This document shows, one piece after another, positions 10,686-46,138 of a DNA stretch of 64,000 nt. The DNA is from Sphaerolaimus hirsutus (Eukaryota > Nematoda > Chromadorea > Monhysterida > Sphaerolaimidae). The translations under genes were made by a program, and so were the position numbers. Each line of letters begins with the position of its first letter. Position 1 is the first letter of the stretch. The stretch lies in the NCBI GenBank assembly GCA_964036195.1, contig OZ038459.1:744001-808000 (forward strand), written 5' to 3'. The notes under the pieces are model-generated. The model worked only from the letters and a program-made list of their open reading frames with translations. It was not told where the DNA came from and ran no database searches.

Positions 10686-13600
10686 GGGCCTCCACACGCT
10701 AGTTGACATCACATTTTTCGCATGTAAAATGTCAACTCAGAGTCAACTGAAATTTTTCTCAGTTGACTCTAGTTGACAACGTACACACTAGTGATAATGT
10801 CAACTAGTAAATTTGGGCAGTACAGATATTTGTGTCACTGGCCGAGTCAACTAAAGCATACGCGTATGTTTTTTTGCGTACGCGTATGTTTTTTTGGCAT
10901 ACGCGAACGCAGAAAAACGTACGCGTATGTTTTTTTGCGTACTTATACAAATGTTTGCGTACGCGTACACAATTTATGCCTTTTGAATTGCCAAAAGTGT
11001 AAAAGTGAAAAAGTTAATTATGAATGTGATATTATTAGTGTTTTTTATGTCAAATGTGATATGTTGTGATATTTATGATTGTTATTTACTGTTGTTTTTA
11101 CGTTTTTGAATGAAATTTTCCAAATTAGTTTTTTTATTACATATTTATTGAAGACACATACTAAAGTGAAAAATCACACAATCATCGATCTGGATCAAGT
11201 AAACAAACTTTTTTACAAAATTTTACATTTTGAAAAATTGAAATCAATGAAATTAAGTAACAGAAATTGCTGAAAACTTTAAAAAGCAACAATTTTAGAA
11301 TTGGAAACAACAAAGTAAAGCGTGTACTACTCGGGTTTATTGACAAGTTTTGAATATTTTGACAAGTTTTGAATTGTTTAAAGAAAAACGAACAACTAAG
11401 AAAAAAACAGATTTAGAAAAGAGAAAGAAAGATTCTTATCAAGTTGTAAAATTTTGAGAGAAATTGCAAACAGAATCTGTTGAACAAAATTTTTTCTGCT
11501 TTTTACTCAGAAATATTTAGATAGTACATTTTAAAAATTAAATTCTGAAAATTTATAAATGTTGTTGTTGTGGTTTTGTAAATCTTTACATATCAAAAAA
11601 TTTGTAAGAAAAAAAAAGAAGAGGAGATTCATTTTAAACTTGAACAATTTGGAGATTGAAAATAGCAAACATGAAAACTTTAATTGTTGCATTTTTGCAT
11701 ATTTTCAAAAAACATTTACAGCTTTTGACACAACTTTTTGAAATTTTTATTTTGAAAATTCAAGGTAAAAAAATTCAAAATTTAGTTATTCTTTAAAAGT
11801 TGCACTTTTGTGTCTAACAAAGAATTCATATCTGCTATCTATTTACTTTTAACAACAAAACAAAAAGTTTCCAAATTATTATAAAAACAAGCACATTCAA
11901 ATCTTTCCAAAAATTCAAAAATACTCAAAAATCATCGCAAAATACCAAACAAAACCACTAATTCCAGAAAACATTCAAGCCATTTCACTTCAGACACCGC
12001 CCACTGCTGCCACTCTCCTGAAAGTATCAATAGAGTTAAGAATGGATTAGTCTATAAAATGTCAACTTATATATTGTTTACTTCACTACCATGCCCCACA
12101 CAGGCTACTTGACAACGACAGAAAATGTCAACTGTTTCCTGTCCCAATCCAAAGCTTGCTTTTCAATTCCTGAAAGCGAGCTTTGAATGGGGATCAGTTT
12201 GGTTTGGAACTTTACATTTGGTGTTGATGTCAACTAGCCTGTGTGGGCCCTATTTTTCAATTATGAGGTGGAGCCAACCACTTACACACACACTCAAACT
12301 TATATAAGTTGACATTTTCAATCTATAAATATAACTATAAGCAACATAAATGACAACATGCAACCGTAAATGTCAACTAATCTGTGTTTACATTTGCAGT
12401 TGACATTTTCATTTACAGTGTTCATTGAATTGACTTTTTGGCTGTTTCAAAAGTTTCAATAAAAGTGAAAATCATGATCGAAAATGTCAACTGAGCTGAA
12501 AGTGTACGCTGCGTACGCTAGTATACGTTTTTTTTTCATTTCAGTTGACACAAGTGTTGTGCGTACGATGTCAAGTACCCAAAATCGTATGAAAACGTCA
12601 AAAAACGTATGCAAAAGTGCGTATTTCCGGCAGTTGACTCAGCGCTCGCCGACTTTCCAAAAGTAACTTTATTTATCCAATTTACATTCTATTTATACGA
12701 AATTTTAGGTACACATAGAGAAAAATAATGTGCATCTTTCATAGAAGAACTTTTTGCAAAGGAACAGTTCAAAAAAGTGTGAGAATTTTTTTTGTTGAAA
12801 ATTTCCAAGTCAGTTGACATCGCGTTTTTTGTATACTATGAGTGCATACGCATATTGACATAAGCTACATAGACATTTTGTCAACTTCAAATTTTTTTCT
12901 ACACTTCATATGTTCAGTAAACAATGCTTTTCAATACTAATGTTCTGATTTTGTTGATGCAGAGGTAGCTGCACCAGATATTACTATCACAAGGGACACT
13001 ACTTGGTGATTCTGTTCATTTCTGCAAGTGCTGATTTGTGTGTGCAGTATGTGCATCCTTAAATTTATTTTTACACTTATATTTTTTGCTATATTATTAT
13101 TATTTTTAAAATTATTTTTATTTAAATTTTATTTTTTTATTTGTTTTAAATGTTTTTACTTATATTTTAATGTCCATTTTTTTAAATTGTTTTTTTTCTT
13201 AAAGTTTTATTATATTTATTTTTATGGGTATTTTATCTATTTTTTATTTTTCAATTATTTTTATTTTTTTAAATAAATTTTATTGTTTTCATTTTAATTT
13301 TTACTAATTTTTTTATATTTTTACTTGAATTTTATAATTTTTATTATTATTATTTCATATTATAATTACTTTTTATTTATGAATTTTATAATTTTTATTA
13401 TTATTTTTTTCTTCCTATTTTTATAACTTTTTTATTTATATTTCAATTAAATTTTCCTTATTTAATTTAATTTTTTATGTTAATTAATTATGTTTTTTTA
13501 TACAAAAAGATACTGTATACTGGCAAGATTTCTGAGTTAATGAGTCGGATTTAAAAGTTATGTCAACTGATCCATTTCTAGGTGAAATGAATCAGTTGAC

Positions 13601-14410
13601 ATATTTTTGTAAACTGTCAGTGTCAACTCATCAATTTTTTTCAGAGTTAGATATTTAGGTGTTAAAAATTGAAAAAGCTGCCGTTTTTTGAAATTTCTTG
13701 TGTTACTTGCTTCAATAGTCTTAGTATATCAAATTTCACATTCAGTGCTGTCATAACTAGCCAGGAAAACTTTTTAAAATTATTGAAGTTTGAAATATTG
13801 AAAAATTCATATCTTTCTTTTATGTTATGTGATTCTTTCAAAAAAAATACTGCTGTGTTAGCGTTTCTTTCGCCTTTCATTTGGTTATGTTGGCATTATC
13901 ATATGATTCCGTGTTGCGTGATGAAAAATAAATTTCCATTTAAAGAAAAAGATTTTTTATTCTTTCAAAAAAATTTATTACAAATAATAATTACTACAGA
14001 AAAATTCACAGACATTTATAGTACATGAAACAACTATCTAATTAACAAGCATTCACACATGTAAACGATAAAAAATTATTGAATATGGAACATGAAAATA
14101 ATTTTTCATTTGGTTATGCTTCACACAATATATGATAATTAGGTGTCAAAAAATCAGATTAATTATGGTTTATCACATAACACTCTTTAAATCACACAAA
14201 CTGCATCGTAGAAAGCAGGGTCAACTCGTTTCTGAGAATGGATTTTTCCAGTTGACTTTTTCAATGAAATACATGAGCTAAATGCCAAAAATATGGGTTA
14301 ACGCGTATGCTCTTTTAAAAAAGTCAAGTGGTGAGTGATTGTGTCAACTGAAACACTAGTTGACTCTGAGTTGACTCTGAAATGCGATGTCAACTAGCGT
14401 GTGGAGGCCC
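10686..14410. mobile_element. 3.7 kb inverted-repeat element, copy 1
   Basis: The ends are GGGCCTCCACACGCTAGTTG and its inverse, flanked by TAT (10683-10685, 14411-14413). It is almost identical to 42415-46138. The interior is very AT-rich, with many TGTCAACT/AGTTGACA motifs clustered near the ends and TACGCGTA motifs. The longest frame is 119 codons and resembles no transposase. A related short MITE is nested at about 12092-12250. Confidence 0.93.
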
Positions 14411-16207: not shown

Positions 16208-16586
16208 GGGCGTGCACTGATACGCACACGTGCCCGATACGCACATATGCCCGTTTTTTTCACTTGACACTTTTTCAAGTGATTTTCAGATATGAGTAAA
16301 GTGAAAAAAAGTTGCGCAATGACATTAGTAAACTTTTTTCACTTCACTCATATCTGAAAATCACTTGAAAATGTGTCAAATGAAAAACAGTGAAAAATGG
16401 CTATTTTTTTCACTTGACACATTTTCAAGTGATTTTCAGATATGAGTGAAGTGAAAAAAGTTCACTAATGTCATTGCGCAACTTTTTTTCACTTTACTCA
16501 TATCTGAAAATAACTTGAAAAAGTGTCAAGTGAAAAAAACGGGCATATGTGCGTATCGGGCACGTGTGCGTATCAGGCCTGCCCCG
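16208..16586. mobile_element. hAT-like fold-back MITE, GATACGCACACG arms
   Basis: Flanked by an 8-bp duplication TTTATTGT (16200-16207, 16587-16594). The arms contain repeated GATACGCACA units followed by CACTTGACACTTTTTCAAGT and TCAGATATGAGT, inverted about the centre. A second copy lies at about 19966-20193. Confidence 0.9.
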
Positions 16587-18781: not shown

Positions 18782-20892
18782 CTGCGTTTTGAGGGGGGGG
18801 GGGGTGTATTTTTCTGGGAGATTTATTTTGTGAGTGGCACTTGTATTTAGCTGATGATAGCCAAGAAGAGAGAAAGTTGACAAAAATGAGTTTTTTAAAT
18901 TTGGATCGGTTTGCACTAAGATTTGGGATAATGCATAAATTTGGTGAATGGTGAAATTCAAGACTTGAATATGGCAGTATCCTGTGCAGAGCAGGGAGTA
19001 TTTGTAGTCTCGGGATTTCTCACTTCCGACACCCCGGTCCCAATTTCGAGGAATTAAAATCTAAGCCCAAATATCAGTCTTGACAAATAACAAACGAAAA
19101 TAACCACTCAACCTGATCCAGGGACCCGTATAATGTCAGGATTTATGTCCCGGTCGCCATTTCCGCGACTGGACAAGCGACAAGAAAAGCGGAAAGTAAG
19201 GCGATAACTATTTAAGTAACAAACTTACTTATCACTTACTTTTTCTCACTTGATTTACCACTTACCACTTTCCTTACCGTTAGAAACGACCCAATTAAAA
19301 TTCAAATAGCGAAGCCAAACTCCGCCCACAAACGTACCGCCTCCACCTCCTCCTCCTCCTCGTCGATGGTGGACACGGTGACCGAACCGAACTTGCCCAT
19401 GTTCTTCACGTGCTTGGTGATGATCACCTTCTTGGGCGCTTCCACTTCCTGCGGTTGCGGTGCGGGAAATACGGTACGGTTTGTCGGTGAACATTTTGGG
19501 TACGGTGCGGTGAATTTAGGTCAGCGGTAGGGTTAAACGACGCTGGCTTTTCGATACCGATACAAAGTATGTCATCGAAATGTTTCGATACCGATACAAA
19601 TGCAACAAATTTTTTTCCCAATATATGGACTTCCTTAGATTTTCAGTTGAATTTTAAAACACAGCGATTGCTTGCAATTGGCATTACATGAGGGATTTTG
19701 AATCTGGAAATGAATTAAGACAATGTTATCTGAGTTGGAAACGCCAAACTTATCAATGAAAAAACGTCAATGAAAAACACGCACGATGTTTGCAAAAAAA
19801 GCGAATCCGACAAAAACCAATCCAAATTATTCAATTTTTTCAACGTGACATCAGGATTTTATCGAAACGTGAGACTCCCATTTTTTCGAATACCGAAATG
19901 AGAATCCCGTTTTTCGAATCCAATACCGGAAAGTACCGCGGTATCGTTTGAACCCTAGTCAACGCGGGGGTGCACTGATACGCACATCTGCCCGATACGC
20001 ACATTTGCCCGCTTTTTTCACTTGACACTTTTTCAAGTGATTTTCAGATATGAGTAAAGTGAAAAAAGTTGCGCAATGACATTAGTGAACTTTTTTCACT
20101 TCACTCATATCTGAAAATCACTTGAAAAAGTGTCAAGTGAAAAAAACAGGCAAATGTGCGTATCGGGCAGATGTGCGTATCAGGCCTGCCCCGTCAACGC
20201 TACCGTAAACTCCGTCAACATACATACCTGCGGTCGGGCGAACGTGACCCCGCCCAATTCGCTGGCCGTGCAGACGGCGTCGGCCACTATGAAGGTGACG
20301 TGCATGTTGCCGCTGTGCTGGTAGTAGAGAAAAAGGCCGCACTTTTTGCACTTTTTTCTGAGTTTCGGGGGATTTGGTTGTAGGATGTGATGTGTGGTGA
20401 TGAAAAAGGGACATCGGGCTGTTTTAAAACTCAAATTGTGAAGTCCGTCAAGGTTTTTTTTTGGCGTATTTACTTTCAATCGATACCGCGTCAATAAATG
20501 TAGCAAAATAATTTGAATAATAAATAAAATAAGAAATTTACGAAAAAGAATTTTTTAAGCTGCTCGATATTCAAGATTTGTTATTGGCACATGATTTTTT
20601 TCAAATCAAATTTTTTTAAATAAAAAAATCTCTTAAAAAATCGAGTCGTCAACTAAAAAGCTTCAGTCAACTCAACCCACCTGTACTGCTGTTCGATGCC
20701 CTCTGCCCTGCGGATATAAACGGTCTCCGAGGGCTCGCAGGTCACCTTGGCCACGTGCCGCTCAGCGTCGATGACCCTGGCGCCGTCGCGCCGCCGCAGC
20801 GGCAGCTTTTGCAGCCGTGTGTTGATAATCAGCGTGATCTGGCCGCACACGCAGTAGTACGTGTGCAGCGGCTTGTCGCCGTGGTAGTCGCC
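18623..20892 (-). CDS. STEEP1: STEEP1 (CXorf56 family) STING ER-exit protein, exon 1 not found
   Basis: Four minus-strand exons join in phase. Exon 20892-20681 gives [18 protein letters not shown], then IDAERHVAK and [11 protein letters not shown]. Exon 20357-20228 gives [16 protein letters not shown] and VTFIVADAV. Exon 19448-19338 gives [21 protein letters not shown]. Exon 18781-18623 gives [11 protein letters not shown] and [10 protein letters not shown], then stop. The order matches animal STEEP1: CxC and CxxC cysteine pairs, the [17 protein letters not shown] signature, a basic coiled C-terminus and a terminal GTLI motif. In vertebrates the protein helps STING leave the ER and also co-purifies with spliceosomal material. 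About 20-25 N-terminal residues are missing, presumably on an exon to the right of 20892. All junctions are GT-AG. Confidence 0.95.
19338..19448 (-). CDS. STEEP1: STEEP1 exon with the [11 protein letters not shown] signature
   Basis: Exactly 37 codons, phase 0 at both ends, from CCGCAG|GAAGTG to GCG|GTACGT. It contains [20 protein letters not shown], the best-conserved part of the family. Confidence 0.96.
19528..19957. mobile_element. TAGGGTTAAACG hAT-like MITE with CGATACCG arms, in a STEEP1 intron
   Basis: Left end TAGGGTTAAACGACG and right end CGTTTGAACCCTA. The arms are TTTCGATACCGATAC-like motifs. The flanks GTCAGCGG and GTCAACGC look like a decayed 8-bp duplication. Confidence 0.8.
19966..20193. 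mobile_element. Second GATACGCACA fold-back MITE, in a STEEP1 intron
   Basis: Same terminal structure as 16208-16586, with TCAACGC on both sides. It abuts the previous element. Confidence 0.85.
20228..20357 (-). CDS. STEEP1: STEEP1 exon with the KKCKKCG cysteine pair
   Basis: The first base completes an Arg codon split across the intron (AG|A). It continues [20 protein letters not shown] and TFIVADAV, and ends at CCGCAG|GTATGT. Confidence 0.95.
20681..20892 (-). CDS. STEEP1: STEEP1 exon with CVCGQ and [11 protein letters not shown]
   Basis: The acceptor is CCCTCCAG and the donor is TACAG|GTGGGT, ending in phase 2. It encodes [33 protein letters not shown] and [16 protein letters not shown]. 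Confidence 0.96.
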
Positions 20893-23155: not shown

Positions 23156-23744
23156 GCTTCAACGCAAAAAATAGGAGAAAAAATCAGTGTTGCGGCTTGA
23201 ATCATACGTCATTGTCGTACGTTATGTAAAAAATACCTCAACGTAAAAAGCAGCAAAGCAGCTCTATACTTGAATGAGTTTACCCCAAACGTTAACATTT
23301 TATAAACAACAACTCTGCCAATTGTTACTCCTACCTTTACCTACATAAAATGTCGGCAAGCGATTTCGCAGCATCGAATCCGATTTTTTAAATAGTTGGC
23401 AATTTTTTTTGGTGAATATGCACTATGTAAAATTCATCTAATAAAACTAGACACTTGCCAAAGTCTCAACAGTTGGCACTTGATGCAATACAAGCCCCAG
23501 CCCTGTCAATTCCGCATATGGGGAAGTAAAAACCTATTTTAGAAGTGGTAGTAAAATGATAAGTGAGAAATAAAATGAGATGTGAAAAGTTTAATGAGGG
23601 GTAAAAAGAATCTCTCATTTCACCATACAATTCTCACTTTATTTCTCAGTTCGCTTCACACTTCTCATTTTACTTCCCACTTCTCATTTTATTTCTCACT
23701 TCAAAAATAGTTTCTTACTTCCCCACTTGCAAAATTGTCACCAG

Positions 23745-23941
23745 GTGGCAGTCCCAAGCCCTGTAAAGTGTAAAATGTAAAGTAAAGTGTCAATCAAAAC
23801 AAAAAAGAAGATTTTATTATTGAACTTTGCATGACAATTGACACTTTACTTTACTTTTGTCATGACAATTGACACTTTACTTTGCACTTGACTTGACATT
23901 TGACACTTTACTTTACACTTTACAGGGCTTGGGACTGCCCC
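23745..23941. mobile_element. Introner-family MITE just downstream of the HMGCR stop codon
   Basis: GTGGCAGTCCCAAGCCCTG at the left is matched by CAGGGCTTGGGACTGCCCC at the right. The body is TGTAAAGTGTAAAATG and TGACATTTGACAC in inverted arrangement. It lies 24 bases past the HMGCR stop, on the 3' side. The flanking triplets are CAG and CTG. Confidence 0.85.
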
Positions 23942-23965
23942 CTGATCACCCACAGGGCACTCAAT

Positions 23966-24178
23966 TCAAGTGAGCATGTTATTGCAACTATTTGGGTCCA
24001 AATAAGCCCTGGTGGCCCTTTCAGCCGCGCGGCCCAGAGTGAACGAACTCGCCGAAGACAATTGCTGACTTTTTTCAGCCATCGCCGACAAGTTTTCCAC
24101 GCTGGCGCTGCGCAAATTCGTGCTCGATCTGTTGTATTTCAGGTGACTTTTCACCAAATCTCCGCTGGCCAACGCGGC
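23966..24178 (-). CDS. HMGCR: HMGCR last exon with DLVKSHL and extended tail
   Basis: Begins [20 protein letters not shown]. The His of KSH is the catalytic histidine and the Ser of NRSS aligns with the AMPK-site region of vertebrates. A further about 50 residues (Ser/Ala-rich) run to TGA at 23968-23966. A possible AATAAA on the minus strand lies at about 23818-23813. Confidence 0.92.
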   Translation of the reverse strand, partial: AALASGDLVKSHLKYNRSSTNLRSASVENLSAMAEKSQQLSSASSFTLGRAAERATRAYLDPNSCNNMLT

Positions 24179-27100
24179 CAGGGGGCAGTCCCAGACCCTG
24201 TAAAGTGGCCTGTAAGATGTCAAATGTCACGCAAAGTGTCTAAAATAATGTAAAGTGTCCTGCAAAATGGCAAACGGCGTTTGCCATTTTGCAGGGCATT
24301 TTACATGACTTTTGACACTTTGCGTGACATTTGACATTTTACAGGCCATTTTACACGGTCTGGGATTGGCACCAGGATCGACAGCTCGCCCGCCAGCACG
24401 GCGGCGCTGATTATTTCGGCTAGGCGTGCCGCGTTGGCGCCGGGCACCTGCAGTTTGGTGGTTTTTGTGTCGTTTTGAAAAGTGAATTTGAAGGAGAATT
24501 TGATTTGGGTTGAAAAAGTGACGATTTTAAATTGAATGTGTGTGAAAAATTGAGATCGGGAACAAAAAATACAGAAACGGTTTGTGATCAAAATTTCTGG
24601 AGTCCGGGTGATGATTGGCATCATTATTTCCTAGATTAGCATTCGATTCACATTTACCTAACTCAATTCAAAACTTGATTTTTCAAATCACGCACCATCA
24701 ACAGTCAACTTTCAACCAACCGTAAATACCCACATTGAAACGCCCAGGAAATCACCCTCAAACCCCCCCCCCCCACCTTATCATTGCTGCCGGCAACCCC
24801 GAGCATCTGCAGGGCGGCGTTCTGCGGGGGGAGCAGCGTGCCCCCGCCCACGGTGCCCACCTCGATGGAGGGCATGGTGACGGACGCGTGCAGGTCGCCC
24901 GACTCGGTCTCCTCCAGCAAGGTCATGCACGAGCTGGACACGCCGCTTTGCGCCGCGTCCTGGGGGGGGGGGGGGGAGTTTATGATGAAATGTATTTACC
25001 ATGTGCCGTATGAATAAAAACCAATGTTTTCATTACAATGTGACGACCAATTTTTTCAATTGCCGGCGCACCTGTCGGGCTCCGACAGTGACAATTTCTT
25101 ATCAAGTTCCATATCTGCAAGAAAAAACAGTGAAGTATACTCACTAGTTCAGTGTACACACATGCCAAATTTCAGATAAATCGGGCTTTTCGTTCCATAG
25201 TTATAAGCATTTTAAAAATTGGATCAAAAAAAGCGAACCGACAACGCAAATTTTTTCAAATGCTTATAACTATGAAACGAAAAGACCGATTTATCTTAAA
25301 TTTGGCATGTGAGTGCACCTAACTAGTGAGTATACTTCACTGTTTTTTCTCGCAGATATGGAACTTTATTCCGGATTTATGGAACTTTTTCACCTTTTTT
25401 TTTGTCAGCACATTTTGCAGTCTGAACGCAGCTTTAAAAGCCACGTTTACACAGCATTTTGTGCCGACAAAAAAAAGTAAGAAAGGTCCATAATTCCGGA
25501 ATAAAGTAACTCTGCAACAAAATCAGTGATGTATACTCACTAGTTGAGTATACACACATGCCAATTTGCAGATAATTCGTGCATGTCATTCAAGTTTGAA
25601 AACAAATTTCAGGTGTCGGTTCGGTTTCAAAACAAAAAGCGAACCGACAACTGAAATTCGTTTTCAGATGCCCAAGTCTTGCACTGCAGGTCAAATTATC
25701 TGCAAATCTGCACGTGTGTACGCTCAACTAGTGAGCACACTTCACACTTTTCTTGCAGATATGAAACTGAGGCGTCTAATTCTAAAAGTCGACAAGTCCA
25801 CAAAATGTGATTTTGAGTAAATCGCATTTTAAGATTCCGATCCAATTCCAGGCCCGTGGTGCATGTCCAATTTGGCTCTCTCATGGTTTTCATAAAGTTC
25901 CATATGTTGACAATAAAGTGTCAAATTCTCAGCCCCTAATCTCAACGTATATGTGAAAAATGGGGTGTCCATAAAATTCCATTCGGTCAGAGCAAAACTG
26001 TTTCGGGGAGGGAATTGGACTTGTCGCCTTCTTGCACTAGAGAACATTTTTGTTCCCGGGGAAGCCGAGGCTGCCTTATGGGAAAAAGTTGGACTTGTCG
26101 CCCTTTAGAAATCGGTTTCCATAGTGGACTTATCACATTTCTTGCGTTTTTTTCCCTTAAAAAGGAAGCGGAGGATGGACTTGTCGCCTTTTAGCCCAAA
26201 ACTAAGTGGACTTGTCGACTTCTTGCCCAAACTTTTTGCATTTTTCTCCAAAAATGTCAGATTTGGCACTTTGCCATATGGGCATGTGAGGTCAAAAAAT
26301 TTATGGAAAATGATGAAAAATGTGCAGAAGTAGCCCCAGATGACGTTTCCGGGCCTAACTCGAAATTTTCATATTTTGGACTTGTCGACTTTTAGAATTG
26401 GACGCATCAACTGTATTCTGAAACTATGGAACTTTCTCACTTATTTTTTGTCGGCACACGAAACCGTGTAAAGGCTGCTCAAAATATCACGCACCTGACC
26501 AGTGGCAATGAAAACCGCAGTGACAATGTTTGCCGCGTGCGCGTTGAATCCAGTCATGGCTCCAGCCATGGCCGATCCGATCAAATTCTTGTCTCTACTC
26601 AGAGCGCACAACGTTTTAACGTCAACATGGAGAATGCGTTTCACAGCGCTGGGGTCCAGCAAAGTTTCTGCTACTACTGATTTTCCGCGACCCGATATCC
26701 TGCACATGTTGCGAATTTTTGACAGTTTTTTTAAAATCGTTGAAAAGGTGCTTTCTCACCAATTCATGGCCGCGGGCTTTTTATCCACGCAGTAGTTTCC
26801 CGACAAGCTGACAATCTGCATTTTCGGAAAGTACTCATCGCGCAGCATGCCTAGCGCCGCTTCAGTTGCCTAAAATTTTTTATTTTATATATTTCGAATA
26901 TTTAAAAAAGTATTTAAAAAAAAATGTTTGATTTGAAAAAAAATGAAAAATAGACAACCTTGGAAACCATGTTCATTCCCATGGCGTCGCCAGTGCTGGC
27001 CAGAAATCGGATAAAGGCCAACCTTCCAGCCACGCCCACGGTGACCTGTCGCAGTCGCGCAAATCTACTGCTGCCATCGAATCTGAGCACAATCTAAACA

Positions 27101-30100
27101 TCTTTAAAATGATAACTAGTTGATTTAACTATTAGATATGAAACATGTGTATGCTTGACTATCAGTATGCGAAAGACCATTTTCACGTCAAAATGGTGCC
27201 CGTTGTGCGGCATCGTTAAATATTCAAAGCACTAGAAACTAGGGTGTACAGAAGAGTTGGAATACATGCGTCGTGCGTAGGGTTCCAACGGGATCCCGAT
27301 CCTGGATCCCGTGAAATTCCGGGATTTAGCAGTCCCGATCCCGAAGTTTTCAAATCCCGATCCCGATCCCGAGAAACTCCCAAGTCCGGGATCCCGATCC
27401 CGGAAAAATTAGTGGAAAAAAAGTGAGAAAATGACATTTTTGCATGCAAAAATGTGAACAGAAACCCCCAGCGTCCATTTTATGCCAATTTTCTGGCATC
27501 CAACAGTGTTTTGCAACCTTTATGAACAACTGTGAATGCCAGAATATTGGGCAAAATCTCTATTCCAAGACCCCAATCCCGATCCCGACAAAATGCCAAT
27601 CCGGATCCCATGACCCCAATCCCGGCCAATCCCGATTCAGAAATCTCAAAAAACCAATCCCGATCCCGACCCCGAAAAGTCAATCCCGTTTGAACCCTAC
27701 GTGCGCCCTATTTCAAGCGCTCACACGCGCACCCGGCGCCTCAGTTGAAGGACAGTGATTTTGGAGGTGACAAACCATAAAACAGGCATGAAAACAAGCG
27801 ATCTTGGGCGAAAATTGGGGCTAAATTGGTCAAAAATCGCTCCAGATCGATAGATAACTGGAGCGTCGGAGGTTAACCCCCCATACCGAACACCTACTTT
27901 GAACCCCAAACCCGACCTCTGTTTCACCAAGCGGAAATTCTCAGCCCGGCCGAGCCAGGACTTCAATTCGACGCACTGGCGGGCGGAGGGCAGCCGCACC
28001 ACGGGCGCCCTGCTCATGCCGTCGTCGTGCACGTGCGACAGCACCCCCTGCCCGTCCGACGAACCTTCCTGTGGGGGGGGGGGGTAGGGCAGTATTAGGT
28101 AGGGGTTTGAGGTAAACGGAATGGCAGAAACAGTGCAAAATGGCACTGCCACAGGCGGGAATCGAACCCGCACCTCTCGTATTGAGCACGAGCCCTAACC
28201 GCTAGACCACAGTGAGCTCTAGTCGGTATTAAGCCGAGAATCCGGGGCGCCCCCCGGTATAAAATCTTCCCCCCGCTCAAAACTCCTGGCAACGTCCCCG
28301 CGTGCACCCATTGGCGCACCGCACACTGAAATTTTGCGTGCAGCGTTCGAACGTTTTTGCACGCTGAACAACAACCGCTGAAATCAAAATCTAAAGAACG
28401 CGATGTTTTTGAAGCGTAAAAATTTCGGAATTTGCAATATTTCGCGCAATTCACATGCGAGTAGTATTTTTTACGCTTCAAAAATGTTGTGTTCTTTAGA
28501 TATTGATTTCAGCGTTTATAGTTCAGCGTGCAAATACGTTCGAACGCTGATCGCTAAATTTCAGTGTGCGGTGCACCCATTAGTACCAAACCACAATTTG
28601 ATCAACCCGTGCAAACCCATTTCACCTTAAAAACTCCAGCCAATTAAATAAACGGACCATGATAAGTTTGCAGCCTCTGGACGTGCTGGCCACCAGAGCG
28701 CCTTCAGTGGTGGCCATGGGGACGAAAACGCACCGACCGTTGATCAGCAAGGGGCCGGCCACGCCTACAGGCACGGGCATGTAGCCGATCACGTTCTCGC
28801 AGCACGCGTTCGACACCTGGGTGGGGAGAATGACTTTTGGAAAGTAAGATGTGCTATGTATAGGGTGTCTAACTTTCCGTTTTCGGTAGGACAAATTTTT
28901 ACTTTTCCGTTATCTGTTTCCGTGAAAAGTTTGCTTTCCGTTTTCCAGCATTTCATTTTTACGTTTTCTGGCCGATAAATTTTTTACCTTTCTTTTTTCC
29001 GTTTTCCATAAAGTGAAATTTTTTACGTCAACATTTTTTTGACATCCTAGCCGTATAGTTAGATAAAAATCGCGCGTTTTTGGATCAAGGTATCTCTGAT
29101 TGTGTGCAGCACCTGCGGAAATCCCATATTTCATTTTACTTTAGTTTTAGACCCCGTTTACACGGATTTTTTGTGACGACTCGACAAAAATAAAACGTTC
29201 AATAAGTTGAGTAAAAATGTTCCATATTTATGAGAAAAAGTGGTCAATTAAACATCTTACCTAGGGGATTATGCATGTCAAATTGCACAACCGCGCTTGT
29301 AGCTCATGAGTTAAAGGCGTTTGACAACTGTTGCAGTTGTCGGACTGTTGTCGGACTGTCTCCGACAGCCAGCGACAATAGCAAACTTTTTTAGAACGTT
29401 ATAAATGTTGAGCTACAAGCACGAGTCTGCAATTTGTCCTGCATATTCGCTAAGGTAGAAGGTATACTTGACCACTTTTTCTAATGAATATGGAACCTTT
29501 TTACTCAACTTATTGAACGTTTTATTGTTGTCAAGTCGTCACAAAAAATCCGTGTAAACGGGGTCTAACGCTTTCGGTATCTAAAGGGTAAACATTAAAT
29601 GGAATGTTGCTCATTAAAAAGAGAGATGTTTTGGTTAATTCGGGTGATATTTCTCGCAGTCTATTGGCCTTTCTGAGTGCAGTGCTGCGCTGTGGGGCGG
29701 GGGTTGTGCAGTAACTTTTTAGTTTACAATTTTTCTGCAAATATGTAAATACATATTTCCGAATACTGACGGTTCACATTTTACATTAAATTAATTTTAC
29801 ATTAAAAAAAAAATTAAATTCGATTTATTTGGGTCAATTTAATGATACACGTGAACGCAGGGATTGAATAAAGAAAACTGCAGTATCATGATATATTTAG
29901 CCATATTTGGTTGTAGTAAGACATATTAATCATATACGAACGTTAGACCCCGTTTACACGGATTTTTTGTGACGACTCGACAAAAATAAAACATTCAATA
30001 AGTTGAGTAAAAAGGTTCCATATTCATTAGAAAAAGTGGTCAAGTATACCTTCTACCTAAGCGAATATGCAAGCCAAATTGCACACTTGTGCTTGTAGCT

Positions 30101-32621
30101 CAAGATTTATAACGTTCGAAAAACGTTTGCTATTGTCGCTGGCTGTCGGAGACAGTCCGACAACTGTCCAACAACTGCAAAAGTTTTCAAATGCCTTTAA
30201 CTCATGAGCTACAAGCACGATTGTGCAATTTGACATGCATATTCGCCTAGGTAAGATGTATAATTGACCACTTTTTCTAATGAATATGGAACCTTTTTAC
30301 TCAACTTATTGAACGTTTTATTGTTGTCGAGTCGTCACAAAAAATCCGTGCAGGGGTCTCCAGGATTTTGGACCTCGCGGGGGCTGGATAGATAGCAAAT
30401 CGCTCCTCCGGAGGGATAGATAGCTGGAAAAAATTTCTGGGGGGGGGCTGGGGGGGGGCTTGGGGGGGGGCTGGCGGGGGCACAATATATAGGCTTTTTC
30501 GAGGTTAAGAAGGCAGAAAGGGGAAAAAATCGCTAATAATCAGTTGAAAGTAGCCAAAAGTAGGTATAAAATGGCTAAAAATAGGTATATCACCATGTGT
30601 ATAGCCGGAAAGCATGATTTTGAAGGTGAAAAACTATAAAAAGGTGCGAAAATTGGTGATTTTGAGCGAAAATTGGGGCAAAATTTCTCAAAAACCACTC
30701 CAGATAGATAGATAGCTGAGCGATTTGGGGGGGGTCTTTGGGGGTAGTGGCCAAAAATTTTGCCTCGGGATAGATAGATAGCTGAGCGGCCTCCGGGATA
30801 GATAGATAGCTGGCCGATTTGGGGGGGGGCAGCCCCCCCCAGCCCCCCCCCTAGGAGACCCCTGAATCCGTGTAAACGGGGCCTAATAAAAAAAGATCCA
30901 AAAAAATTTCACCAGGACATTTATTGCTCACTAATTTTGGATTTTACAGATTACAGACAAAAATACAGATACAGATAAAAATAAACAATTACAGAAAAAT
31001 TCTCAGACAGGCTTTTTATCGGATTTTTTGGCCGAGTGTGATGATTTCCAGTAATTTAATTTTTATATTCCGAAAATCCTTATATTTTAATAAAATACCC
31101 GATTATCCATGCATTCGGATTTCGGAATTCTGCAATACTTCATAAACATTTAGAACCAACATCTAGGGTTGGCCGATGTTTTTTTTAAACGTTTTTTTTT
31201 TAAAAACATGACGTCCGAAATGTTTTGTTTTTAAAAAAAACATCGGCTGAAATTTTTAGTACTAAGCACTAGGTATTTTGCAAAATTTTTGCGCGCAAGC
31301 GCGTAATTTCACACACAAATTGACATTGGTGGTTGTTTTCATTGGTTTTGTTGCATTTTTAGTATCAAAACATTCATTTCTATGTGCTACCATGGGTGAA
31401 TAAGCCGACATATGTTGCTGTAATATATAATATTGAGGTAATGTGCTTCCATGTACCTCCACAGTGTGTAACTTCACTCCCAAAGTAACAACCTCCTTTT
31501 ATAACCTTGTTTGATCACCATTCCGTGCCAAACTTTACCTGAAGTCACGAACATTTGACTATAAGGCGATATACGAACGATATGTCGACGAAAAATGGAT
31601 ATTTTTGACACAAATCACCACTTATAATGCTATCCCATGGCTCCACAGCCATTATATGGTCATATTTAACATCACAGAGTATTGCCAGTGTCTTTTACCT
31701 ATATATGTTGACACTAGGTCATATCTGGGAGCTTTTAAAAAAAAACATCGAGTTAGAAAAAAACGTTTTTTTTCCAACCCTACCAACATCCCCGAACAAA
31801 CCAAAGTGTAATCGTAATTGGTGAAGGGCAGCTGTGGCGCGGGCAGCCCGCATTTCTTGAGTTCAGCAGCGAGCCATTGGCGTCTGCAATTGAGACAAAA
31901 AAAGGGTATAAAAGTTGGAAACGTGACTCATAGAGCAAAGAAACTATCTGTTTCAGAAAACCTGAAATAAGTGTAAGTATATAAATACTGTAAGTACTGT
32001 TTTACAAAATAACTATCTCGATTCTTGAGTTCAGGTCTTTCAAATGTGTAATTTTAAAAAAATGAACACCTAAGAGCCGATTGTAAAAAATTGTAATAAA
32101 AACCATTCTAATTTTATCTGCCTAGAAATTTCAGCCTGAACGATTTCAATCCCAAAAACAACCCACCTAATTCTCAACGCCCTCACTGGATCCCCAATAC
32201 ACTTCTCCAACATAGCCGGGCGCATTTTACCGCATTTCAGCGCGGCAACGATCTCCGCATCCGCACACTCGACCAGTTCATCAATGCGGCCCTGGGGGCA
32301 GTCCCGGACCCTGTAAAATGCCTGTAAAATGTGAAATGTCATGCACTGTCAGAAGACATGTAAAATGTCCTGCAAAACCATTTTCCACGGCTCGGGTGAC
32401 CATTTTTCAGAGCATTTTCCATGACTTTAGACACTTTGCATGACATTTGACATTTTACAGGGTATTTTACATTCGTCTGGGACTGGCACCTGGCTAACTA
32501 GCGCGGCCGCCCTGCCGCCGCCGTCGGACGACTGCAGCTGCGGCTCGTTGTCGCCCAAGCGGAGGTCGGCCAGGCTGTCGCCCGTGATCGACACTTGACA
32601 TGACGCGTCCGACATGCCGCT
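23966..32621 (-). CDS. HMGCR: HMG-CoA reductase (class I), catalytic domain complete, membrane domain not found
   Basis: This enzyme reduces HMG-CoA to mevalonate with two NADPH, the committed step of isoprenoid synthesis. Eleven minus-strand exons are recognisable: about 32621-32490, 32291-32167, 31883-31802, 28816-28658, 28068-27917, 27082-26959, 26869-26760, 26699-26495, 24959-24777, 24447-24373 and 24178-23966. Landmarks in order: [27 protein letters not shown] (catalytic Glu, human E559), [29 protein letters not shown] (Lys, human K691), [33 protein letters not shown] (Asp, human D767), [17 protein letters not shown] and DLVKSHL (His, human H866). All four catalytic residues are present. 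Phases agree throughout. The sterol-sensing membrane domain expected upstream was not found. The C-terminus is about 50 residues longer than in vertebrates. Confidence 0.97.
24182..24372 (-). mobile_element. Introner-family MITE splitting HMGCR between ELSIL and AALASG
   Basis: Flanked by the plus-strand triplet CAG on both sides (24179-24181, 24373-24375), which reads CTG on the coding strand. It starts GTGCCAATCCCAGACC and ends GGTCTGGGACTGCCCC. Removing it with one CTG restores the frame exactly. There is no AG at the right junction, so a canonical intron with these ends cannot form. Confidence 0.92.
24373..24447 (-). CDS. HMGCR: HMGCR exon with LAGELSIL
   Basis: 25 codons: [20 protein letters not shown] and ELSIL. 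The exon stops exactly where a MITE begins (CTG|GTGCCAATCCC). Confidence 0.93.
24777..24959 (-). CDS. HMGCR: HMGCR exon with DAAQ and [12 protein letters not shown]
   Basis: 61 codons, phase 0 at both ends. It begins [20 protein letters not shown] and contains [20 protein letters not shown] and [11 protein letters not shown]. On the coding strand a run of about 14 C precedes the acceptor and a run of about 12 G follows the donor GTGGG. Confidence 0.97.
24960..26494. repeat. HMGCR intron filled with fold-backs
   Basis: About 25110-25400 and 25490-25760 are inverted copies of GTATACTCACTAGTT / CATGCCAAATTTCAGATAA segments. 25768-26409 is the TGAGGCGTC element. No exon-like segment was seen. 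Confidence 0.7.
25768..26409. mobile_element. MITE with TTGAGGCGTC ends and GTCGACAAGTCCA motifs
   Basis: Ends TGAGGCGTCTAATTCTAAAA and the inverse, with GGACTTGTCG / CGACAAGTCC repeated inside. The same element lies inverted at 40713-41358. Confidence 0.88.
26495..26699 (-). CDS. HMGCR: HMGCR exon with GRGKSVV and [10 protein letters not shown]
   Basis: Completes Trp, then [34 protein letters not shown] and [12 protein letters not shown]. It ends in phase 0 at CAG|GTGCGT; the catalytic Asp is the first residue of the next exon. Confidence 0.97.
26760..26869 (-). CDS. HMGCR: HMGCR exon with DKKPAAMNW
   Basis: Encodes [36 protein letters not shown] and two bases of Trp. The Lys of DKKP is catalytic. 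Confidence 0.97.
26959..27082 (-). CDS. HMGCR: HMGCR exon with [13 protein letters not shown]
   Basis: Starts with the base completing Arg, then [20 protein letters not shown] and [18 protein letters not shown]. The donor is AAG|GTTGTC. Confidence 0.96.
27278..27699. mobile_element. TAGGGTTC hAT-like MITE with GATCCCGATCCCG arms, in HMGCR intron
   Basis: Inverted ends TAGGGTTCCAACGGGAT and CGTTTGAACCCTA; flanks share CGTGCG. The arms are arrays of CCCGATCCCGA units. Confidence 0.88.
27917..28068 (-). CDS. HMGCR: HMGCR exon with [13 protein letters not shown]
   Basis: The acceptor is a 12-C run plus ACAG; the donor is CAGAG|GTCGGG. It encodes [32 protein letters not shown]. The first residues ([13 protein letters not shown]) replace the usual GLGGGASSRVLA loop. 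Confidence 0.93.
28148..28222 (-). pseudogene. tRNA-like sequence (pseudogene or SINE head)
   Basis: On the minus strand there is a D-arm (GGTCTAGCGGTTAGG), a perfect five-pair anticodon stem CTCGT/ACGAG with loop GCTCAAT, and a perfect T-arm GCGGGTTCGATTCCCGC. The acceptor stem mispairs at several positions and loop position 33 is C not T, so it is unlikely to be an active tRNA. The nominal anticodon would be TCA. It sits in an HMGCR intron. Confidence 0.65.
28310..28575. mobile_element. Fold-back MITE, CACCGCACACTGAAATTT arms, in HMGCR intron
   Basis: The left arm CACCGCACACTGAAATTT and the right arm AAATTTCAGTGTGCGGTG are inverted, with AGCGTTCGAACG and GAAGCGTAAAAA inside. CACCCATT occurs on both flanks. 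Confidence 0.8.
28658..28816 (-). CDS. HMGCR: HMGCR exon with ENVIGYMP and [11 protein letters not shown]
   Basis: Phase 0 at both ends, from CACCCAG|GTGTCG to ATCATG|GTCCGT. It contains [20 protein letters not shown] and [18 protein letters not shown]. The Glu of TTEG is the catalytic acid. Confidence 0.97.
29150..29565. mobile_element. MITE with GACCCCGTTTACACGGATT ends, copy 1, in HMGCR intron
   Basis: Long inverted arms GACCCCGTTTACACGG, TTGTGACGACTCGACAA and GTTCAATAAGTTGAGTAAAA. The flanks are TTA and TAA. Other copies are at 29946-30883, 48720-48965 and 62766-63168. Confidence 0.9.
29946..30883. mobile_element. MITE with GACCCCGTTTACACGG ends, copy 2, interrupted
   Basis: Same arms as copy 1. 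Its right arm is split by the 514-bp element at 30351-30864. Confidence 0.9.
30351..30864. mobile_element. hAT-like MITE, CAGGGGTCTCC ends, GATAGATAGCT and G-run arms
   Basis: Inserted in the previous element with a perfect 8-bp duplication AATCCGTG (30343-30350, 30865-30872). Ends CAGGGGTCTCC and GGAGACCCCTG. The arms mix GATAGATAGCTG units with runs of eight or nine G. Confidence 0.93.
31164..31782. mobile_element. hAT-like MITE, TAGGGTTGG ends, in HMGCR intron next to a donor
   Basis: Perfect 8-bp duplication CCAACATC (31156-31163, 31783-31790). The ends TAGGGTTGG/CCAACCCTA are followed by TTTTAAACGTTTTTTTT motifs. The right duplication lies ten bases from the HMGCR donor at 31801. Confidence 0.92.
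31802..31883 (-). CDS. HMGCR: HMGCR exon RQWLAAEL...NYDYTL
   Basis: The first base completes Arg. It encodes [20 protein letters not shown] and TNYDYTL, aligned to RRQLLSKKL...YRDYNYSL. The donor is TTG|GTTTGT, ten bases from a hAT insertion duplication. Confidence 0.92.
32167..32291 (-). CDS. HMGCR: HMGCR exon, start of catalytic domain
   Basis: Encodes [20 protein letters not shown] and [18 protein letters not shown], matching the vertebrate segment DAEIIQLV...LETLMETHERGVSIR. It ends in phase 2 at TTAG|GTGGGT. Confidence 0.93.
32292..32489 (-). mobile_element. Introner: a whole HMGCR intron is one MITE plus its duplicated CAG
   Basis: On the coding strand the intron starts GTGCCAGTCCCAGAC and ends GGTCCGGGACTGCCCC-CAG. 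The element proper is 32295-32489. The CAG before the donor and the CAG at the acceptor are a 3-bp target duplication, so the element brings the GT and the host duplication brings the AG. The body is an inverted repeat of TGTAAAATGTCAAATGTCAT-like units. The intron is 198 bases. Confidence 0.92.
32490..32621 (-). CDS. HMGCR: HMGCR linker exon before the catalytic domain
   Basis: Low-complexity acidic/Ser linker [20 protein letters not shown] followed by [14 protein letters not shown], in frame with the next exon. It ends at CAG|GTGCCAGTCCC, where the introner begins. The 5' boundary is uncertain: the best AG is CCCCCAAG ending at 32622. Confidence 0.75.
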
Positions 32622-42414: not shown

Positions 42415-45400
42415 GGGCCTCCACACGCTAGTTGACATCGCATTTTTCGCATGTAAAATGTCAACTCAGAGTCAACTGAAATTTTTCTCAGTTGACTCTA
42501 GTTGACAACGTACACACTAGTGATAATGTCAACTAGTAAATTTGGGCAGTACAGATATTTGTGTCACTGGCCGAGGCAACTAAAGCATACGCGTATTTTT
42601 TTTTGCGTACGCGTATGTTTTTTTGGCATACGCGAACGCAGAAAAACGTACGTGTATGTTTTTTTTGCGTACTTATACAAATGTTTGCGTACGCGTACAC
42701 AATTTATGCCTTTTGAATTGCCAAAAGTGTAAAAGTGAAAAAGTTAATTATGAATGTGATATTATTAGTGTTTTTTATGTCAAATGTGATATGTTGTGAT
42801 ATTTATGATTGTTATTTACTGTTGTTTTTACGTTTTTGAATGAAATTTTCCAAATTAGTTTTTTTATTACATATTTATTGAAGACACATACTAAAGTGAA
42901 AAATCACACAATCATCGATCTGGATCAAGTAAACGAACTTTTTTACGAAATTTTACATTTTGAAAAATTGAAATCAACGAAATTAAGTAACAGAAATTGC
43001 TGAAAACTTTAAAAAGCAACAATTTTAGAATTGGAAACAACAAAGTAAAGTGTGTACTACTCGGGTTTATTGACAAGTTTTGAATATTTTGACAAGTTTT
43101 GAATTGTTTAAAGAAAAACGAACAACTAAGAAAAAAAACAGATTTAGAAAAGAGAAAGAAAGATTCTTATCAAGTTGTAAAATTTTGAGAGAAATTGCAA
43201 ACAGAATCTGTTGAACAAAATTTTTTCTGCTTTTTACTCAGAAATATTTAGATAGTACATTTTAAAAATTAAATTCTGAAAATTTATAAATGTTGTTGTT
43301 GTGGTTTTGTAAATCTTTACATATCAAAAAATTTGTACGAAAAAAAAGAAGAGGAGATTCATTTTAAACTTGAACAATTTGGAGATTGAAAATAGCAAAC
43401 ATGAAAACTTTAATTGTTGCATTTTTGCATATTTTCAAAAAACATTTACAGCTTTTGACACAACTTTTTGAAATTTTTATTTTGAAAATTCAAGGTAAAA
43501 AAATTCAAAATTTAGTTATTCTTTAAAAGTTGCACTTTTGTGTCTAACAAAGAATTCATATCTGCTATCTATTTACTATTAACAACAAAACAAAAAGTTT
43601 CCAAATTATTATAAAAACAAGCACATTCAAATCTTTCCAAAAATTCAAAAATACTCAAAAATCATCGCAAAATACCAAACAAAACCACTAATTCCAGAAA
43701 ACATTCAAGCCATTTCACTTCAGACACCGCCCACTGCTGCCACTCTCCTGAAAGTATCAATAGAGTTAAGAATGGATTAGTCTATAAAATGTCAACTTAT
43801 ATATTGTTTACTTCACTACCATGCCCCACACAGGCTACTTGACAACGACAGAAAATGTCAACTGTTTCCTGTCCCAATCCAAAGCTTGCTTTTCAATTCC
43901 TGAAAGCGAGCTTTGAATGGGGATCAGTTTGGTTTGGAACTTTACATTTGGTGTTAATGTCAACTAGCCTGTGTGGGCCCTATTTTTCAATTATGAGGTG
44001 GAGCCAACCACTTACACACACACTCAAACTTATATAAGTTGACATTTTCAATCTATAAATATAACTATAAGCAACATAAATGACAACATGCAACCGTAAA
44101 TGTCAACTAATCTGTGTTTACATTTGCAGTTGACATTTTCATTTACAGTGTTCATTGAATTGACTTTTTGGCTGTTTCAAAAGTTTCAATAAAAGTGAAA
44201 ATCATGATCGAAAATGTCAACTGAGCTGAAAGTGTACGCTGCGTACGCTAGTATACGTTTTTTTTCATTTCAGTTGACACAAGTGTTGTGCGTACGATGT
44301 CAAGTACCCAAAATCGTATGAAAACGTCAAAAAACGTATGCAAAAGTGCGTATTTCCGGCAGTTGACTCAGCGCTCGCCGACTTTCCAAAAGTAACTTTA
44401 TTTATCCAATTTACATTCTATTTATACGAAATTTTAGGTACACATAGAGAAAAATAATGTGCATCTTTCATAGAAGAACTTTTTGCAAAGGAACAGTTCA
44501 AAAAAGTGTGAGAATTTTTTTTGTTGAAAATTTCCAAGTCAGTTGACATTGCGTTTTTTGTATACTATGAGTGCATATGCATATTGACATAAGCTACATA
44601 GACATTTTGTCAACTTCCAATTTTTTTCTACACTTCATGTGTTCAATAAACAATGCTTTTCAATACTAATGTTCTGATTTTGTTGATGCAGAGGTAGCTG
44701 CACCAGATATTACTATCACAAGGGACACTACTTGGTGACTGTTCATTTCTGCAAGTGCTGATTTGTGTGTGCAGTATGTGCATCCTTAAATTTATTTTTA
44801 CACTTATATTTTTTGCTATATTATTATTATTTTTTAAATTATTTTTATTTAAATTTTATTTTTTTATTTGTTTTAAATGTTTTTACTTATATTTTAATGT
44901 CCATTTTTTTAAATTGTTTTTTTTCTTAAAGTTTTATTATATTTATTTTTATGGGTATTTTATCTATTTTTTATTTTTCAATTATTTTTATTTTTTTAAA
45001 TAAATTTTATTGTTTTCATTTTAATTTTTACTAATTTTTTTATATTTTTACTTGAATTTTATAATTTTTATTATTATTATTTCATATTATAATTACTTTT
45101 TATTTATGAATTTTATAATTTTTATTATTATTTTTTTCTTCCTATTTTTATAACTTTTTTATTTATATTTCAATTAAATTTTCCTTATTTAATTCAATTT
45201 TTTATGTTAATTAATTATGTTTTTTTTATACAAAAAGATACTGTATACTGGCAAGATTTCTGAGTTAATGAGTCGGATTTAAAAGTTATGTCAACTGATC
45301 CATTTCTAGGTGAAATGAATCAGTTGACATATTTTTGTAAACTGTCAGTGTCAACTCATCAATTTTTGTCAGAGTTAGATATTTAGGTGTTAAAAATTGA

Positions 45401-46138
45401 AAAAGCTGCCGTTTTTTGAAATTTCTTGTGTTACTTGCTTCAATAGTCTTAGTATATCAAATTTCACATTCAGTGCTGTCATAACTTGCCAGGAAAACTT
45501 TTTAAAATTATTGAAGTTTGAAATATTGAAAAATTCATATCTTTCTTTTATGTTATGTGATTCTTTCAAAAAAAATACTGCTGTGTTAGCGTTTCTTTCG
45601 CCTTTCATTTGGTTATGTTGGCATTATGATATGATTCCGTGTTGCGTGATGAAAAATAAATTTCCATTTAAAGAAAAAGATTTTTTATTCTTTCAAAAAA
45701 ATTTATTACAAAAAATAATTACTACAGAAAAATTCACAGACATTTATAGTACATGAAACAACTATCTAATTAACAAGCATTCACACATGTAAACGATAAA
45801 AAATTATTGAATATGGAACATGAAAATAATTTTTCATTTGGTTATGCTTCACACAATATATGATAATTAGGTGTCAAAAAATCAGATTAATTATGGTTTA
45901 TCACATAACACTCTTTAAATCACACAAACTGCATCGTAGAAAGCAGGGTCAACTCGTTTCTGAGAATGGATTTTTCCAGTTGACTTTTTCAATGAAATAC
46001 ATGAGCTAAATGCCAAAAATATGGGTTAACGCGTATGCTCTTTTAAAAAAGTCAAGTGGTGAGTGATTGTGTCAACTGAAACACTAGTTGACTCTGAGTT
46101 GACTCTGAAATGCGATGTCAACTAGCGTGTGGAGGCCC
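42415..46138. mobile_element. 3.7 kb inverted-repeat element, copy 2
   Basis: Same ends as 10686-14410, flanked by ATT (42412-42414, 46139-46141). By eye the two copies differ by only scattered substitutions and one- to few-base indels, so the family moved recently. It encodes no recognisable transposase. Confidence 0.94.

Follow-up and report, generated by a model that had tools for sequence, protein, structure and literature searches.

The question raised by this locus is whether a transposon lying inside a conserved metabolic gene can also be one of its introns and, if so, where the two splice sites come from. The gene is HMGCR of the nematode Sphaerolaimus hirsutus, on the minus strand of the window, by which we mean the whole 64,000-nucleotide stretch analyzed (positions 744,001 to 808,000 of contig OZ038459.1, assembly GCA_964036195.1). 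There, a minus-strand foldback element (GTGCCAGTCCC...GGGACTGCCCC) interrupts the HMGCR reading frame and has a CAG on either side, with the junctions exon ...GTTAGCCAG / GTGCCAGTCCCAGAC...GTCCGGGACTGCCCC-CAG / GGCCGCATTGATGAACTGGTC. The original prediction held that the intron at 32292-32489 is this transposon, that the element brings its own 5' GT, and that the two CAGs are a 3-bp target duplication whose second copy provides the 3' AG. The exon end, the element, the second CAG, and the next exon are arranged as claimed, with phase 0 on either side, and keeping the element would add two in-frame stops. Our analysis indicates that this intron was probably made by a CWG-duplicating, NuwaI-like, nonautonomous miniature inverted-repeat transposable element (MITE), a near-perfect palindrome of ~189 nt that would be spliced via its own GT and an AG or TG in the flank. 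A copy sits inside HMGCR twice and, in both places, appears to be cut out as an intron.

The identity of the host gene is borne out by matches to Pfam PF00368 across several exons, and solved HMG-CoA reductases match the exons as well. The eight other HMGCR introns seen, whose boundaries were placed by eye from alignments, are all GT-AG. The fold of copy 1 is far better than those of its shuffled versions (z -9.0; matched by 0 of 200 shuffles), and copy 2 likewise forms a hairpin that joins both element ends at its base. The left side of copy 2 aligns to reductase 8ecg and the right side to 1dq8, the latter weakly when taken alone (5.1 bits); once the flanks are joined, the PF00368 match runs through the junction (E 3.5e-12). 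The 3' ends of the two inferred introns differ: an AG closes the one at 32292-32489, and none closes CTG/CTG copies such as that at 24179-24372. The AGs nearest to copy 2 lie 16 nt before the flank and 14 nt into the exon, and the use of either would break the frame.

Table 1. Positions in the window of HMGCR, its two element copies, and a related copy nearby
Feature	Position	Strand	Remark
HMGCR, part examined	23966..32615	-	first ATG of the exon originally predicted to the stop; real start may be further upstream
Foldback MITE copy 1 in HMGCR	32295..32489	-	subfamily A; 195 nt; carries the 5' GT
Right CAG flank of copy 1	32292..32294	-	final 3 bases of the inferred intron (3' AG)
Left CAG flank of copy 1	32490..32492	-	last codon of the upstream exon (Gln)
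Foldback MITE copy 2 in HMGCR	24182..24372	-	191 nt; orientation as copy 1; between ...GELSIL and AALASG...
Right CTG flank of copy 2	24179..24181	-	inferred intron end is TG instead of AG
Left CTG flank of copy 2	24373..24375	-	Leu codon
Subfamily B-like copy	23745..23941	+	GTGG left end, AAGCC interior, mixed CAG/CTG flanks; just downstream of the HMGCR stop

Within another HMGCR intron, a tRNA-Leu (CAA) is predicted on the minus strand at 28147-28216; its score is barely above the Rfam cut-off, and it may be a tRNA-derived repeat.

The genome (348 Mb, 762 contigs) was searched with four exact-end patterns that required CWG flanks, each accompanied by a reversed control pattern. The searches returned 822 exact-ended copies (377 CAG/CAG, 263 CTG/CTG, 130 CTG/CAG, and 52 CAG/CTG), and the control gave 0 matches in each of the four. 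Under the CWG requirement of the patterns, 640 of the 822 copies have equal flanks, either CAG or CTG, and 182 have unequal ones; similarity alone, free of that requirement, placed a CWG on the left in 18 of 21 distinct places. Flanking CAGs alone argue only weakly for duplication, since CAG/GT...CAG/G is also the ordinary splice consensus; what gives them weight is the recurrence of this element elsewhere with exact ends and a 3-bp CWG to either side. Of the original prediction, it is supported that the intron is a transposon, that the element itself supplies the 5' GT, and that the 3-bp flank supplies the AG of copy 1. The claimed target duplication gains from the recurrent 3-bp flanks; however, the two flanks differ in the 182 mixed copies, and duplication of the target is therefore not faithful in every case. 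CAG does not hold as the general flank or as the general source of an AG. The flank is CWG, and in the 263 CTG/CTG copies no AG falls where the junction would restore the protein. Such copies lie in conserved coding sequence, and the AG rule is incomplete. Overall, the original observation was confirmed, and its interpretation is partly supported.

At least two subfamilies are recognizable by their interiors. Subfamily A, the older one, carries ...TCCCAGACCCTGTAAAATG... and has a 189-nt consensus from which its copies differ by ~10%, and exonic A copies differ from their own consensus by ~9%. Subfamily B carries ...TCCCAAGCCCTGTAAAGTG... and is more homogeneous, with 2.7% divergence (9 copies). 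In 534 copies, the base after GTG (position 4) is not C; this second large left-end class still starts with GT and is probably a subfamily, judging from the window copy at 23745.

Mixed-flank copies, for example 23742-23944 in the window, L005, L020, L028, and L089-L093, have flanks that differ in the middle base, and CTG/CAG (130) outnumbers CAG/CTG (52) among them. They also occur in subfamily B, which accounts for 16 of the 52 CAG/CTG rows and for at least 24 CTG/CAG copies among the matches listed (the first 72); point mutation at 2.7% divergence hardly explains them. It seems that the middle flank base is not copied faithfully at insertion or that elements recombine. At three further places, L094 (C6:13793880), L095 (C2:18842440), and L096 (C2:15909400), HMGCR fragments are joined through an element to foreign sequence. 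These fragments hold at least one exon plus the next exon up to the left part of the element, and L094 and L095 run on into the same foreign sequence, which looks like capture or recombination through the hairpin.

Coding context and orientation were assessed with a home-made codon score, trained on 10 loci (the two in HMGCR and eight with Pfam hits) and six HMGCR exon pieces, each training locus being omitted from training when itself scored. Sense denotes GTGCC on the coding strand; the opposite orientation would begin GGGGC. Left out of scoring were L008, L015-L017, and L023, whose ends the patterns did not match, and L009-L014 and L025, which are duplicate places. L029-L088 come from C1 and C2 only, because for two patterns the hits were taken in genome order and limited to the first 30 of each, and L089-L093 are five places picked by hand from the CTG/CAG list. 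L053 and L054, with near-identical flanks, were both kept among the 73 subfamily A loci, and L085 and L086 are also alike. Coding-like context was found for 51 of these 73 loci, compared with 0 of 9 sampled B loci (Fisher p 7e-5). Among the 42 coding-like loci outside the training set, the sense strand scored higher in 35, and where the margin exceeded 5 (n = 29), the count was 28 sense to 1 antisense. The longest open reading frame (ORF) gave no separation of strands (15 sense and 14 antisense of 30 loci; 18 and 11 of 30 in a second set); this comparison is uninformative because GC-rich exons leave long shadow frames, and the codon score was used instead. The two equal-flank classes are similarly exonic, with 20/28 CTG/CTG and 22/33 CAG/CAG loci coding-like (p 0.78), or 14/22 and 19/29 with the training loci removed. 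All eight CTG/CAG loci in hand are coding-like, seven with the higher score on the sense strand; if the right flank lies in the intron, such copies end in AG and retain a CTG codon. Retention of the element would introduce a stop or a frameshift in 43 of 43 sense coding-like copies.

We joined the flanks in 20 sense frames, selected for their conserved look, and in 10 antisense frames, namely the seven non-training coding-like loci where antisense scored higher together with L007, L039, and L049. Pfam matches were obtained for 18 of the 20 sense frames, L093 and L032 having none, and for none of the 10 antisense frames. Removal of the element and one flank produced a conserved domain match above the Pfam cut-off through the junction in 10 of the 20. 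Eight of these are CTG/CTG copies (L004, Laminin_N; L061, Oscp1; L066, Srx GPCR; L070, Rcd1; L071, Sugar_tr; L077, 7tm_1; L078, EFTu_D2; and HMGCR copy 2), one is CAG/CAG (L035, cadherin), and one is CAG/CGG (L026, zinc finger). From the computed domains, we take the L070 gene to be CNOT9-like (Rcd1 domain) and the L078 gene to be EFTUD2-like (EFTu domain 2). The junction-spanning match of L027 falls just under the cut-off (22.2 of 22.7 bits), the matches of L041, L086, and L090 are below it throughout, and those of L003, L030, L034, and L042 lie beside the junction rather than through it. Laminin_N, Neur_chan_LBD, and FAT4-like cadherin genes are present in the genome, as judged by Pfam matches of the joined frames, and point to an animal. 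The placement of the family in conserved animal genes is like that of introners, the comparison originally drawn for this one gene.

The fold of the element suggests how its ends could meet. The subfamily A consensus forms a single stem with a 3-base loop (-166.9 kcal/mol) and leaves unpaired only the 5' GTGC and the 3' CCCC plus flank. In RNA folds of 82 sampled copies, 79 have their first four bases free of pairing and 77 their last seven, and of the 594 internal AGs, 575 are paired at one or both bases. These folds suggest that the hairpin may hide internal acceptors while drawing the element ends together.

Constraint on the splice sites was examined by counting variants. Donor position 2 varies in 14 copies and control position 6 in 35 (p 0.004), a modest sign of constraint at position 2; the last flank G varies in 19, a weak contrast with the same 35 (p 0.04). 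The comparison sets for positions 2 and 6 and the last G mix subfamilies. Position 4 was useless as a mutation control, with 534 copies carrying another base there, and position 6 took its place. Right flanks are CAG in 507 copies and CTG in 315. Selection for a right-hand AG was considered and dropped: the CAG:CTG ratio is 137:97 in subfamily B, which is not exonic, and 370:218 in the rest (Fisher p 0.27; the inner gap permitted by the B patterns was wider by one base than in the other patterns), and B also has copies with mixed flanks, so the excess lends no support to selection on AG.

We infer from these data that the element is removed from transcripts, and the following course is proposed. 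In the transcript, the element would form a single long hairpin in which almost every internal AG is paired and the unpaired GTGC and CCCC-CWG ends come to lie close to each other. The spliceosome would then take the GT of the element as donor and the last dinucleotide of the right flank as acceptor, which would be AG in CAG copies (copy 1) and TG in CTG copies (copy 2). Several points weigh against this proposal. The branch point would fall within the long stem, and splicing itself is deduced from sequence. Because nonexonic copies have the same GT end, a GT by itself does not indicate splicing, and the right-hand CAG excess is much alike in nonexonic B and the rest. The donor contrast uses a single control position and mixes subfamilies, and the strand score is home-made where plain ORF length did not separate the strands.

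Other explanations must be weighed against splicing from the element GT to the flank AG or TG. It is rather unlikely that CTG/CTG copies simply stay in as null, polymorphic, or decaying alleles and that only AG-ending copies are true introns. In its favor, the assembly shows one sequence per locus, and removal is a prediction from sequence. However, several conserved genes carry CTG/CTG copies, and the ~9% divergence of exonic A copies argues against very recent insertion, unless the source elements already differed. In HMGCR, the CTG/CTG insertion lies before the segment that aligns to 1dq8, and PF00368 is matched in two or more exons only at the HMGCR place in the window, with a single matching exon at each of three others. 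An HMGCR paralogue as a rescue copy was rejected: the three further places match profile positions 268-330 only and are chimeric in the 900 bases read at each, and in the exon preceding the element, two of the three show one-base gaps relative to the gene in the window. We consider it quite unlikely that the hairpin joins the ends for an unclassified machinery that cuts at the repeated CWG without the classic spliceosome, as proposed for euglenid nonconventional introns (PMC4770533) and Amoebophrya introners (PMC7789003). Those precedents, the folding of the whole element into a single hairpin that has the two ends at its base, and the finding that CTG/CTG is as exonic as CAG/CAG (20/28 against 22/33) all speak for such a route, but the strong 28:1 sense bias would be unexpected if only a near-symmetric hairpin counted. 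Moreover, the eight ordinary HMGCR introns are GT-AG, and CAG/CTG lies 4 and 7 nt from the ends here compared with 3 and 5 nt in the euglenids.

GC-AG splicing within the element, from a GC two bases in to the acceptor TTTTACAG 16 nt before the flank, would be in frame for the consensus ends and would add 21 nt, or seven residues, to each protein. Although that AG is present in 43 of the 51 coding-like A copies, it is equally common in A copies not scored as coding (20/22) and is missing in the EFTUD2-like copy L078, where the last upstream AG is 47 nt away; with seven residues to be inserted into conserved domains, this solution is very improbable. The most ordinary explanation, an old intron that merely contains a MITE, takes CAG...CAG as splice consensus, and CAG/GT...CAG/G is indeed a normal intron boundary. 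It is barely conceivable here, given that the element ends are the exon edges exactly in both HMGCR copies and that the reading frame continues across the joined flanks of other sampled copies.

The element shares features with several known systems. Introners are described as nonautonomous, intron-making DNA transposons, some families of which have inverted ends and target duplications (PMC9860276, Gozashti et al. 2022). As in introners, many similar introns lie in different genes of one genome (822 copies; 51/73 A loci coding-like), and taking out the element plus one duplication restores coding sequence (10/20 chosen joined flanks). In the Chrysochromulina family of Fig. 2C of that article, the element brings the 5' splice site and the 3' site is co-opted from the duplication; that family is presented with 4-bp duplications and without inverted ends, whereas the present element is a full-length palindrome with a 3-bp CWG duplication that provides AG in just one of its two forms. 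The host here is an animal, which is rare in that survey, where two groups only are reported among animals and land plants. The NuwaI group of PHIS (PIF/Harbinger-like) elements, found mainly in animals, is defined by 5'-CWG-3' target duplications (PMC4482050). The present element resembles NuwaI in its 3-bp CWG flanks, and the unequal CWG flanks of 182/822 copies set it apart. An autonomous NuwaI partner would share its ends and encode a DDE transposase and a Myb/SANT protein. The dinoflagellate Amoebophrya is reported to have hairpin introns with variable borders, flanked at the exon edges by direct repeats of 3-5 nt and in many cases lacking GT-AG (PMC7789003); in the present family, the GT at the 5' end is constant and variation affects mainly the 3' dinucleotide. 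In euglenid nonconventional introns, which are suspected to derive from MITEs, a hairpin joins the ends with CAG/CTG paired near its base (PMC4770533). A hairpin joining the intron ends is also found in our RNA folds; however, the pair lies at +4..+6/-8..-6 in the euglenid description and at +5..+7/-10..-8 here (counted from the frame-restoring GT junction), and a constant GT belongs to the present family. A few human GT-TG introns, as in GNAS and TSPYL2, use TG as the 3' splice site (PMC4176328), whereas a whole transposon-made class would be involved here, if removal holds. Our literature search recognized nothing as this MITE family, which the supplementary tables of the Gozashti et al. survey may nevertheless list.

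Other repeats in the window include two near-identical AT-rich stretches (13058-14028 and 44795-45756) with nearly the same 120-residue open frame (KLKKLPFFEISCV...). A 150-bp unit is repeated 1.9 times at 16254-16537 between the 17-bp repeats GATACGCACACATGCCC and CGGGCACATGTGCGTAT, which reappear in similar form at 19977 and 20147.

Applying the coding-like fraction of sampled CTG/CTG loci (20/28) to the 182 exact CTG/CTG copies outside B gives ~130 exonic CTG/CTG copies by extrapolation. We regard as evenly balanced the prospect that, in this animal, a foldback transposon gave rise to a large class of introns that end in TG or that are removed by an AG-independent, hairpin-guided route. The family is a natural experiment on the requirements of a new intron: hundreds of insertions share the donor and the hairpin, and the 3' end is AG or TG according to the target base. 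Should TG copies prove to be well spliced, the AG rule would be looser in this animal than assumed, and the hairpin may replace the AG; should they be spliced badly, the cost would be measurable. The family also shows how a preference for CWG targets, among them the CAG with which exons usually end, can make a transposon prone to form introns.

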